Shown here piece by piece: positions 22,301 to 29,915 of a stretch of DNA of 64,000 nt. The position numbers and the translations under genes were made by a program. The stretch is taken from positions 74,318,687 to 74,382,686 of the forward strand of contig NC_044030.1 of NCBI RefSeq assembly GCF_900496995.4, written 5' to 3'. Origin of the DNA: Aquila chrysaetos chrysaetos. Its lineage: Eukaryota; Chordata; Aves; Accipitriformes; Accipitridae. The notes under the pieces are model-generated. The model searched no databases, was not told the DNA's origin, and saw only the letters and a program-made list of their open reading frames with translations. Position 1 is the stretch's first letter; each line of letters starts with the position of its first letter.

Positions 22301-23845
22301 GATAAGGTTTCATCAGCGCTTTGTGGAATGTCTTTAACACTTTGCACTTCTGAGGTTGCACCTGGGTTTTCATGGCTGCACTACACTGGTGGCTCCTACC
22401 TGTCTAATGGCTGGCTACTAAACCCAAATCCTCCACTTGTTTTGTTTCCAACAGGCAAGCTCTCAGTTTGTAGGCAGGTGATGGGTTTTATTTCCCTTGG
22501 GCATGACTTCGCACTTGGTAGAGCTGGATTTCATCCCTTTTTCTGTTCTGTCATCCTCAGAGGTACCAGTTGCATGAGTTGTCCCCTTCCTTCTCTCCAG
22601 CAGTGGTGACATCTTGCAAACCTCAAGCAAAATGTCCCCGCTTTTTGTGCTGAAGTCATACACGAACACATTAAATGAGGCCCCAGAATGATCCTTGACA
22701 AGTTCAGTGCCTTCTACCTCATAAATACCGCAGTGTTTGAGCTTATAGAAAAGTTACTCTGAGCACCCACCTCTTGTTCAGCAATCCTCACATTAGCCTG
22801 CCCAATTGCAGTTGCTTCTGAGAACTGAATGTGACTTTCCTGTGCCTGAATCAGAGGTCACTAATGACGCTGGTATGAGCTAAACACCTAACATGTTTTC
22901 AGCAGAAGTGCCTTAAGGCTAAGCATCTGCTAGAATGGTCCTCTTCACCGTCATCTTGCTGGATGCCTCTGAAATAGGCAGGGTCAGCAAAGCTTGTAAT
23001 GGGTTCCTGATGGTAGGAAAGTGTACAGTGTTCACTTCTCCCCATTGTCATGTTTTATTTAGCTCTCGAATGCACAACATGGTAGGAGCAAATGTTTTCC
23101 TATGTGATGTTTATTCAAAGAATGACATATACAGTTCAAGAGTTTAGGCATCACAAGAGACGAACTGTTTGTATCTGCTAATCTGATTTTTTTTTTTTTT
23201 AATGGTCATTTTAAAACCAATTCAACCTCAAAATACCCATGAAAGGTATTAAAAAATCTTAGGTATTTGAAAGAATGTTTGCTTCTTTATGCGAGACCTG
23301 TTTAGAGCAATGATATTTTCTCTTTAGTAGGTGGATATAAAGCTCCTAGCTGTCTTTGGCTTGCACCAGAAAGCTCATCCACTTTTATTAATAATAATGC
23401 AAAGAACGAGATTATAACATCCCCGGAAAAAAATGCATTAAAACATTTGTCTTCTTAGGCGGCACTGATTTTAACTTCAGTTCCTGGTAAGGTTAGTTTA
23501 ACTCCGCATGTTTCATTTCCGTCCAAGGGTTCCTGGAGGACAAGAGCTCTTATTTCTAACAAAGAAGTGAACTTAGTCAAATTTTCAGCTTCCTCATTCT
23601 TCATGTTGGATTCCTTTTCACTATCAACAACATGAAACAGCAGGTGCTAAGTTTTATTTGGAGTTCTTCTCAATGTGTGGTTTGACGTACAGCATTAAAA
23701 AAAATGAACGTTCATTTTCCTATTTTAAATCCTTCTGTCTCAGGTCACAACAGAAGAGTTCATGAACTACTATGCAGGAGTCAGCGCTTCAATAGACACA
23801 GATGTCTATTTTATCATCATGATGAAGAATGCTTGGAAACTCTGA
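19204..23845 (+). CDS. CAPSL: Calcyphosine-like EF-hand protein (gene span, isoform A)
   Basis: Four coding exons (19204-19340, 20189-20366, 21275-21484, 23744-23845) join in frame to 627 nt, or 208 aa, the length of human CAPSL. Every intron has GT..AG ends. The product is a small cytosolic calcium-binding protein with four EF-hands. Loop 1 is at residues 52-63 ([12 protein letters not shown], with Arg in place of the usual Gly). Loop 2 is at 88-99 ([12 protein letters not shown], canonical). Loop 3 is at 124-135 ([12 protein letters not shown], weaker). Loop 4 is at 167-180, a lengthened loop starting DSPYDKDG. The N-terminus ([14 protein letters not shown]) and [10 protein letters not shown] match the family. 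In mammals CAPSL is expressed in ciliated cells; no such link is visible here. IL7R lies tail to tail downstream, as in human. An alternative terminal exon lies at 29814-29915. Confidence 0.97.
20189..20366 (+). CDS. CAPSL: CAPSL coding exon 2 (EF-hands 1 and 2)
   Basis: The acceptor TTTCCACAG precedes the last base of Arg46, and the exon ends after codon 105 at donor GTAAGT. It encodes EF-hand 1 (loop 52-63) and the canonical EF-hand 2 (loop 88-99, acidic at X, Y and -Z with Gly at position 6). The length is 178 nt (1 + 59 codons), so it closes in phase 0. Confidence 0.97.
20671..20710. repeat. (AATAG)8 microsatellite
   Basis: Eight perfect AATAG units lie in CAPSL intron 2. The array is uninterrupted and so likely length-variable between individuals. 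Confidence 0.95.
21275..21484 (+). CDS. CAPSL: CAPSL coding exon 3 (EF-hand 3 and first half of EF-hand 4)
   Basis: Exactly 70 codons, phase 0 at both ends, with acceptor TTTCTTTACAG and donor GTAAGT. It encodes residues 106-175: EF-hand 3 (loop from Asp124), the conserved [12 protein letters not shown] segment, and the start of the long EF-hand 4 loop, DSPYDKDGK. The splice junction falls inside that loop, so whichever terminal exon is used supplies the rest of EF-hand 4. Confidence 0.97.
23744..23845 (+). CDS. CAPSL: CAPSL terminal exon A (residues 176-208)
   Basis: Acceptor TTCTGTCTCAG, then 33 codons and TGA. The product begins [16 protein letters not shown] and ends MMKNAWKL. It completes EF-hand 4, whose -Z Glu is the Glu before Phe in TEEF. 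It closely matches the C-terminus of mammalian CAPSL, so this is the ancestral terminal exon. Possible poly(A) signals follow at 23853 (ATTAAA) and 24457 (AATAAA). Confidence 0.96.
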
Positions 23846-23852
23846 TCATATG

Positions 23853-23858
23853 ATTAAA
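23853..23858 (+). terminator. Possible poly(A) signal for CAPSL isoform A
   Basis: ATTAAA, the commonest variant signal, lies eight bases after the exon A stop codon. That would give an extremely short 3' UTR, so the AATAAA at 24457 is at least as likely to be used. Confidence 0.3.
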
Positions 23859-24456
23859 GGAGCAAGACTTTACTTCCACCTTTTGTAGGTTCCCATGATT
23901 AAGTATATGCACAACAACACGCTCATTTTCCATAACAGCTTGCAGTAACTGTGCCAATTACAGTCAATCTGCAGAAATAATTCCCCGATGCTTCAGTAGG
24001 CTAAGCCTCAGGGGATCAGAGCATAATCAGAGAGCAGATCTGGTATCCAGCCACTCTGCAGATCTGTCCCTTTCCTCCCTGCATCCCTGACATGTCTTGT
24101 CTTTTCTGAGGCAAGCTGCTCCTTTCTTCTCAGACATCCGCAGTATCTCCCCGTGGCTCCTGAACGTACCCCCTCCTCCAGTGTTAGAGACACCTCTGTT
24201 TGACAGAGGATGCAAGAGGGGGAAACCGAAATATTCTGGAAGGGTGGTGGTCTGGGGCAGACTATTGTAAATGTGAGGATGCCTGTCCCAGGAGGGTCAC
24301 ACAGCCCTCTCGCCTGTAGCACTGCAGCATCTCTTGGCTTCTTGGGTCTCACTTGTGGGACAGAGCAACTGCTCAGCTCTCTGCTGGGATCACGTGAGTT
24401 CCCAGTGCTGGGAGGCTGGAGGGACAAACAAGTCAAGAAGGGGAGGGACAGACCAG

Positions 24457-28508: not shown

Positions 28509-28526
28509 CAGCAGCAGCAGCAGCAG
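28509..28526 (+). repeat. (CAG)6 run
   Basis: Six perfect CAG triplets. They lie outside any supported coding exon. Confidence 0.9.
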
Positions 28527-29813
28527 CATGCTCAGCTTTCCCTGGTAAAACAGATAACGCCAAGAGCAACCTGCCGCTGTTGGCACCTGCCCGCTTTCTA
28601 TGACTTTCACTATGATTATAGCCCATCCTGTTTCTCTAGAAATCCTTTCTCATAGCCAGCTCAGAAGGAAGGGGTGAGCAGAAAGCAGGTTTCCTGGTGA
28701 GCTGTGCATAACGTCAAGTCCTCAGGTGGCTGAGAGCAGCCTTGGTATTTGAAGCAGCCCCCGGCTATACAGGTTTGCCCCAGTTGAGTTTGAAGTCCCC
28801 GTGATTTCAAAGCGAGCACTGGTTTCGGCTCTACCACCTCTTCAGCTCTTACGCCAAGAGAGGCTGCGGGAGGTGGGAACACTGTAGGATGCAAAAGCTT
28901 CAGCTCACAGGTTTGCAGCTGTCCCCAGGTACGACAGCCCTGTCTCTGCTGAAACCTGGACCCAGGCTTCGTCCCAGCTTACGACATTGCCGTTGATCCC
29001 AACGGGAGCTGCAGCTGGAGAACGGGAATGGGACCCAGACTTCGTTGAATGTCTTGGCAAGCAGGAAAAATGAGAAAGAAAGGAAGCACAATGTTTTGTG
29101 AAAGTTAACTCAAGCCTAGTTTTCTGTGGAAAAGTAGAGATTGTGGTAAAATGTGAGCAATGTTTATTTTCCAGAGATAAGTCGGTTCTTTTTTTTTTCA
29201 TTGAAAACTTGATGTTTTTGCCAAAAGCTGGAATTTATTGGTTTTTTTACTTTCAGCTGATACTTTGGCATTCAAAGGGTACTGTTTTTTTTCTTTCAGA
29301 TTATGTACATTTTATGGAAAAAAAAATTAGCAGATTGCTTTAGAGAAGGTCTGACTTTGTGGCATAGATTTATTCCTTTAGATATTTCCACCAATGCATT
29401 TCTGCTTTGTTTCTCATTTTTTATTGCTTGACTAACTTTTGGAGCTTTTTACATTCATTTGGTGATGGTGTTAATGTTGGACTAATCTAATTTCCTTGTG
29501 ACATCTAAGTTACACAGTCAATATTTACCAATAACCGGAATAACTTTTCTTATATTCATTTTTCAAAGACATAGCAACAGCTCTGTCTCCCAATGCAAGA
29601 AGCTCAATCCATTGACCTCAGTGTCATTGGACGAAATGCTGTGTGAGAGCTTGCTGCAGCCACACATCCTAATGTCAGATTAGGACAGTCTGACCTAAAA
29701 ATCAGACTTCTCTGGAAAATGCAAAAGAATTATTTGCAAAATACGGAGATGCGTTACATAAACATCTTGCTTTGGCCATCACACATTGTAAACACTGTTT
29801 TTCTCATCCTTAG

Positions 29814-29915
29814 GTTACAAAAGATGAATTTTTGAACTACTACTCTGGAGTCAGTGCTTCTGTGGACAGTGATGCCTACTTCATTTTAATGATGAAGAAA
29901 TCCTGGAAACTCTGA
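29814..29915 (+). CDS. CAPSL: CAPSL alternative terminal exon B (duplicated exon)
   Basis: A second copy of the CAPSL terminal exon lies about 6 kb beyond the first. It has a good acceptor (CTGTTTTTCTCATCCTTAG), begins in phase 0 like exon A, has the same 102-nt length, and ends with the same Trp-Lys-Leu-stop. The product starts [16 protein letters not shown] and ends MMKKSWKL. Against exon A, 23 of 33 residues are identical and most of the ten changes are mild (for example Glu/Asp, Met/Leu, Ile/Val, Thr/Ser). At least nine further codons differ only silently. The EF-hand -Z Glu is kept. There is no stop, indel or broken splice site. It would splice from the exon 3 donor at 21484 as an alternative last exon. 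A poly(A) signal lies at 30529. Confidence 0.85.

Follow-up and report, generated by a model that had tools for sequence, protein, structure and literature searches.

Does the CAPSL gene of the eagle Aquila chrysaetos chrysaetos end in two alternative coding exons, both kept by selection, or is one of them a dead copy of the other? The question arises in a stretch of 64,000 nucleotides (nt) on contig C37, positions 74318687–74382686, which we call the window. Within it, the last coding exon of CAPSL on the + strand (exon A, window positions 23744–23845) is followed on the same strand by a related sequence (exon B, 29814–29915), and each encodes 33 residues and a stop codon. Our analysis indicates that exon B is very probably no dead copy but a genuine alternative last coding exon of CAPSL, maintained by selection.

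The two exons differ at 24 of 102 nt, distributed as 5, 3 and 16 over the first, second and third codon positions. Ten codons are replaced and nine differ silently, with no indel and no premature stop. The encoded tails are identical at 23 of 33 residues and have the Trp-Lys-Leu-stop end in common, and nine of the ten replacements carry a BLOSUM62 score of 0 or higher. Joining exons 1–3 in silico to either terminal exon produces a 627-nt open frame (208 residues and a stop) that enters both terminal exons in phase 0. As scored with a rough acceptor matrix, the acceptors of A and B rank 7th and 24th among the 1374 AG dinucleotides between 21.5 and 40 kb, and both outscore the acceptors of exons 2 and 3. 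The original prediction had described two 102-nt terminal exons at these positions, with good acceptors, phase-0 entry, no indel, the same end, 23 residues in common, mostly mild replacements among the other ten and at least nine other codons silently different, and every one of these features was recovered.

That prediction had further proposed that only the last exon was duplicated, which our searches bear out. By tblastn, exon B matches exon A in the window with an E value of 8.65e-15, far beyond chance, and the 64-kb window holds no second copy of exons 1–3. Our genome-wide searches covered the eagle's own 1.23-Gb genome, where the five exons of this gene were retrieved with E values from 2.1e-45 to 7.4e-8; the other seven matches scored 1.6e-5 or worse, and no second set of CAPSL exons 1–3 of comparable strength was found there. 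When its DNA was searched against the same genome, the sole match of exon B was itself, and a tblastn search of plasmids gave no match to it, as expected for a vertebrate exon. Homologous, adjacent, within one gene and equal in length and phase, A and B thus form a tandemly duplicated exon. A separate search of the genome for the Trp-Lys-Leu-stop pattern was uninformative, with 993 forward and 1015 reverse occurrences, below the reversed-pattern control.

Is the second copy maintained? The two DNA sequences are similar only between the acceptor and the stop codon. Over 150 nt on each side, ungapped alignment gives 38 matches of 150 both upstream and downstream, which is the chance level, and the gapped flank scores were equalled by 47 of 200 shuffles upstream and 161 of 200 downstream. 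Estimated by the Nei–Gojobori method (NG86), synonymous divergence (dS) is 1.73, with a lower bound of about 0.72 and a saturated upper bound, and nonsynonymous divergence (dN) is 0.158, for a dN/dS ratio of about 0.09. The 16 of 24 changes that fall at third codon positions depart from one third with P = 0.0009. In simulations that placed all 24 changes on an unconstrained copy, ten or fewer replacements without a stop arose in 0.15% of runs, and the same outcome arose in 0.3% when B was given a neutral branch of 0.36 (the lower bound of dS divided by two). With neutral B branches of 0.6 and 0.87, the latter being half of dS, ten or fewer replacements occurred 0 times in 20,000 simulations. 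When just 12 of the 24 changes are placed on an unconstrained B, however, ten or fewer replacements and no stop are expected 62% of the time. For this reason the A/B pair alone is suggestive of selection and not decisive. The original argument that a dead copy would by now look worse is therefore not decisive when drawn from two sequences alone, and stands once silent saturation, the erased flanks and other species are included. It is near-saturation at silent sites, the loss of flanking similarity and, above all, the record in other species that settle selection, and the cross-species tails, the dN/dS ratio and the simulations together place both exons under purifying selection.

To survey other species we used the last 47 residues of isoform B, which matched 156 proteins, and their isoform A equivalent, which matched 280. 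The tail searches listed the best 120 of 156, 280 and 350 matches from a database clustered at 90% identity. B-type tails are present in annotated CAPSL proteins of the birds Calonectris borealis (33/33 residues over the exon), Calidris pugnax (33/33) and Apteryx (32/33), of the turtles Malaclemys and Mauremys (30/33) and of the amphibians Rana temporaria (30/33) and Microcaecilia (29/33), with Ambystoma also matched. They extend to the lungfish Protopterus, to many ray-finned fish (Sander, 27/33) and to cartilaginous fish, namely the shark Heterodontus (28/33) and the rays Hemitrygon and Mobula. The A-type matches listed come from many passerines, Sphenodon, snakes, lizards, a turtle, frogs, coelacanth, chimaera and fish, as well as from the mammals Tupaia and Panthera. 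No mammal or squamate is among the named B-type matches listed, where a B isoform could have been merged with its A partner by the 90% clustering. One B-type protein, P0011, spans the full 208 residues within a source sequence of 1198 bases and so probably derives from a spliced transcript, presumably of a fish, its closest equal-length relatives here being Fundulus and Gambusia proteins; we take its source, 'lgn', to be a set of assembled reads.

These matches bear directly on whether exon B might be a relic, the now unused and slowly decaying last exon left behind by a tandem CAPSL copy that has lost the rest of its exons. Such a relic would account for the missing exons 1–3 beside B. It would have to coexist, though, with an identical tail in eagle, Calonectris and Calidris, with 30 of 33 residues held in turtles and a frog, with near-saturated silent sites at so low a dN/dS and chance-level flanks, and with annotated use of B-type tails in many species. 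We consider it highly improbable.

Three of the proteins retrieved are irregular in ways of their own. The B-type model of Calidris pugnax (P0002) carries extra residues at the junction of exons 1 and 2, from either alternative splicing or prediction error. The tails of P0109 (Smithornis) and P0115 (Sapayoa) contain the unusual runs IDYYSG and LMKTAW and are undecided between A and B by a rule based on four tail sites (7, 11, 19 and 25); they are perhaps diverged exon A tails.

A count of the four diagnostic residues over 233 proteins assigned 110 to A and 107 to B and left 16 undecided, and capsla paralogs and hemichordates fell with B; given this ambiguity we relied on pairs from the same species. 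Two CAPSL models were compared in each of ten fish, chosen by eye from match names. For seven of them (Sander lucioperca, Amia ocellicauda, Anguilla anguilla, Scleropages formosus, Betta splendens, Gouania willdenowi and Triplophysa rosa), both proteins agree at all 175 of the 175 residues that precede the tail, and their tails differ in the way that A and B differ. Among protein models, this combination of identity and tail difference is the hallmark of a single gene that has two last exons. The remaining three fish gave a partial model (Lates, 125/144), two genes (Erpetoichthys, 128/175) and two models with one tail (Siganus). Together with annotated B-type isoforms across vertebrates, the seven pairs support the original prediction that the last exon was duplicated, that both copies are selected and that two isoforms would arise from one exon 3 donor, splicing in the eagle itself being a projection.

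The same pairs speak to the idea that B is spliced in but functionally neutral, a redundant last exon used at a low level, with either tail serving equally well. The mildness of the replacements (nine of ten at BLOSUM62 0 or above) and the core residues common to both tails are what such redundancy would produce. Redundancy is not expected to preserve particular A/B differences, however, and across the window and the seven fish, site 25 is Leu in 8 of 8 B tails versus 1 of 8 A tails, and site 19 is Ser or Asn in 8 of 8 B tails and Thr in 7 of 8 A tails. We therefore disfavour this explanation and judge it improbable.

How old is the pair, and which copy changed? For a tree we combined the tails of 62 of the 233 proteins with window A and B, giving 27 A, 28 B and 9 outgroup or paralog tails. 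In the sorted sets, site 25 is Leu in 28 of 28 B and 1 of 27 A tails; site 7 is Met in 21 of 27 A and 0 of 28 B; site 19 is Thr in 24 of 27 A and Ser or Asn in 28 of 28 B; and site 11 is Ala in 24 of 27 A and Ser or Cys in 24 of 28 B. These sets were sorted by hand on such residues, so the counts serve as description, and the window and fish pairs are the less circular comparison. At sites 7, 11 and 25, tails from three hemichordates, one crinoid and one hagfish resemble B, the one exception being the crinoid's Thr at site 7. Site 19 varies among them, with a single A-type Thr, and the lamprey tail shows a mixture of both types. From these mostly B-like invertebrate and hagfish tails, exon A appears to be derived and exon B ancestral-like. 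The hemichordate Glandiceps talaboti has two CAPSL proteins (P0025 and P0231), whose listed contigs are equally long; they are identical at 115 of 174 residues before the tail, and both have B-like tails.

Approximately unbiased (AU) tests on the 27 A and 28 B tails (55 in all) rejected separate duplications in tetrapods and ray-finned fish (p = 0.017) and did not reject a clean split between A and B (p = 0.52). In the tree, the A tails of Gopherus, Polyodon and Erpetoichthys branch away from the other A tails. We see modest evidence here for one early duplication, which would probably predate the split between tetrapods and ray-finned fish and probably also the divergence of cartilaginous fish. 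Judged by these tails, the A/B pair is no bird novelty and is not special to this eagle, a correction to the original prediction. Alternatively, several lineages (birds and turtles, amphibians, fish) might each have gained the pair on their own, with tails that converged. The tail offers only 33 residues, the tests stop short of formally rejecting a duplication in birds and turtles alone (AU p = 0.055; Shimodaira–Hasegawa (SH) p = 0.35), and the ancestral-type residues of B could be retained rather than shared. The derived A-type residues at sites 7, 11, 19 and 25, by contrast, recur in fish, chimaera, coelacanth and tetrapods, and the paired tetrapod-specific and ray-fin-specific duplications are the arrangement that the AU test rejected. 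We think independent origins unlikely.

Several points weigh against our interpretation of exon B as an ancient, selected alternative exon, the hand sorting and the bird-plus-turtle constraint among them. Tree support from so short a tail is weak. A short neutral branch (0.2) leading to B would make the A/B comparison unremarkable, at 19%. The fish pairs were picked because their names looked like A/B pairs, and the four-site rule identifies the A member clearly for five of the seven and is undecided, at two sites against two, for Gouania and Triplophysa. The annotated isoforms are gene models, some of which may be homology projections, and only three bird entries among the matches listed are B-type (P0001–P0003), where the 90% clustering may hide others. 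Splicing to B in the eagle is extrapolated from gene models of other species and not from eagle RNA. The ciliary role discussed below rests on relatives and localisation reports and not on the comparison of A with B.

With these points in view, we still favour exon B as a working last exon, and the locus suggests how it would be used. Coding exon 1 (19204–19340, from the ATG used here; joined frame and tblastn), coding exon 2 (20189–20366) and coding exon 3 (21275–21484) lie on the + strand upstream of both terminal exons. A loop reading places EF-hands 1 and 2 in exon 2, and EF-hand 3 with the beginning of the loop of EF-hand 4 in exon 3. The exon 3 donor (AAG|GTAAGT) would be spliced to either the proximal A or the distal B, each presumably with its own 3′ end. 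Candidate poly(A) signals on the + strand lie just 3′ of exon A (ATTAAA, 23853–23858) and 3′ of exon B (AATAAA, 30529–30534), both being consensus matches without a chance control; as further consensus matches, AATAAA also occurs at 24457, 3′ of exon A, and at 30904, 3′ of exon B. The two predicted 208-residue isoforms would be the same through EF-hands 1–3 and into the loop of EF-hand 4, and would differ in what follows, the rest of EF-hand 4 with the C-terminal helix. Under the EF-hand convention, the exons meet within this fourth loop, whose final ligand is the Glu at tail position 5. This residue is present in 27 of 27 A and 28 of 28 B tails, and F6, Y9, Y10, the GVSAS run, Y22, F23, M26 and W31 are likewise invariant in both sorted sets. 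As the loop-closing Glu is invariant, calcium binding should persist with both tails, and the swap would most likely tune packing of the C-terminal helix and partner binding. On this account, the last exon was duplicated in tandem in an early vertebrate and both copies have been kept since, B retaining ancestral-type residues and A, the sole type for mammals among the matches listed, carrying derived ones.

The gene itself we regard as securely CAPSL, given an alignment over residues 1–208 to the CAPSL chain of PDB 11yj, which we take to be human, and the LMBR1-family and FN3_7 neighbours on its two sides. With tail B, the window protein matches that chain with an E value of 9.5e-119, human calcyphosine (3e3r) with 1.7e-66 and Tetrahymena RIB22, from a ciliary doublet microtubule entry, with 3.4e-41; PF13499, an EF-hand pair model, has two matches in each isoform. 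On the strand of CAPSL (+), LMBRD2-like exons of the LMBR1 family lie upstream of the window and of CAPSL at C37 74285753–74301378. Downstream, exons of the IL7R-type family FN3_7 (window 42969–43139 and 44459–44596, the only FN3_7 matches listed in the genome) run on the – strand, convergent with CAPSL, and exon B sits between them and exon A. LMBRD2 and IL7R are presumably the genes behind these Pfam families and the neighbours of CAPSL in human, where we also assume UGT3 genes to lie between LMBRD2 and CAPSL. In the eagle, UGT3 genes seem absent between the LMBRD2-like exons and CAPSL, since 0 of the 32 UDPGT matches in the genome fall on C37.

Two further details of the locus may be recorded. 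A second in-frame ATG at 19183 lies seven codons upstream of the exon 1 start used (window 19183–19206), and the resulting reading, MSTLVFQ-M, resembles the N-terminal extension MSALVFQM of the Calonectris protein. A perfect (AATAG)8 microsatellite occupies window positions 20671–20710 in the intron between exons 2 and 3.

What might the two isoforms do? They probably act in motile cilia. Among calcium-related proteins, CAPSL was found in cilia by a human fallopian-tube study (PMC13096173), an annelid study names Capsl as a hub gene correlated with ciliogenesis (PMC10380512), and the relative CAPS2 reportedly sits at the ciliary base (PMC10973386). With relatives such as RIB22 in doublet microtubules, these reports make a ciliary role likely for CAPSL. 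The predicted structure of the B isoform (Calonectris P0001 with 23 relatives) has a mean predicted local distance difference test (pLDDT) score of 80.8 and a predicted template modelling (pTM) score of 0.63. Foldseek and VIA-align rank calcyphosine 3e3r first for this model, followed by proteins of ciliary doublet microtubules from Tetrahymena and trypanosomatids and by many calmodulins and centrins; PDB 11yj is not among the best 50 rows of either. Such matches to a predicted model fit the family and a ciliary setting and cannot tell A from B, and ten mild replacements would lie beyond the resolution of such a model. A tentative possibility is that the two last exons have, since early jawed vertebrates, served two kinds of motile axoneme, such as those of sperm and epithelial cilia, through different C-terminal helices, and that mammals and squamates lost B, leaving human CAPSL with the derived tail only. 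The loss in mammals is a guess.

The original prediction knew of no description of this duplication. None of an alternative last exon of CAPSL was found in the literature searched, which for some longer result lists was their best-ranked part, and B isoforms were already present in public gene models. The words exon and isoform are absent from the main text of some papers with CAPSL in the title, one of which gives predicted splicing effects of a human variant. A search for structural work on CAPSL (11YJ, cryo-EM, microtubule inner protein, doublet microtubule) found no such paper in the literature searched. As far as we have seen, then, the A/B isoforms are annotated and not discussed there. 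The long retention of two homologous last exons, over probably several hundred million years, suggests distinct roles for their tails, and a single 33-residue swap makes CAPSL a clean test case for the tuning of a calcyphosine-type protein. It also raises the question of whether mammals lost an isoform that other vertebrates kept. The CAPSL chain of PDB 11yj has an A-type tail.

The closest known systems are in a human catalogue whose main text reports 236 tandem duplicated exon substitution events, 77 of them C-terminal swaps (Martinez-Gomez et al. 2022, PMC9741552). As described there, those C-terminal swaps resemble the CAPSL pair in joining homologous, adjacent, phase-compatible exons with conservative replacements and functional residues kept. 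The word CAPSL is absent from that main text, and unlike the human events listed in it, the CAPSL event is seen in birds and other non-mammals and affects a small EF-hand protein; CAPSL is a further case, of a sort that a catalogue drawn from human genes could overlook. Also described there is the EF-hand exon swap of ACTN1 and ACTN4, in which a duplicated exon likewise alters part of an EF-hand. In that swap only one form keeps calcium binding (PMC9741552), whereas both CAPSL tails keep the Glu at position 5.

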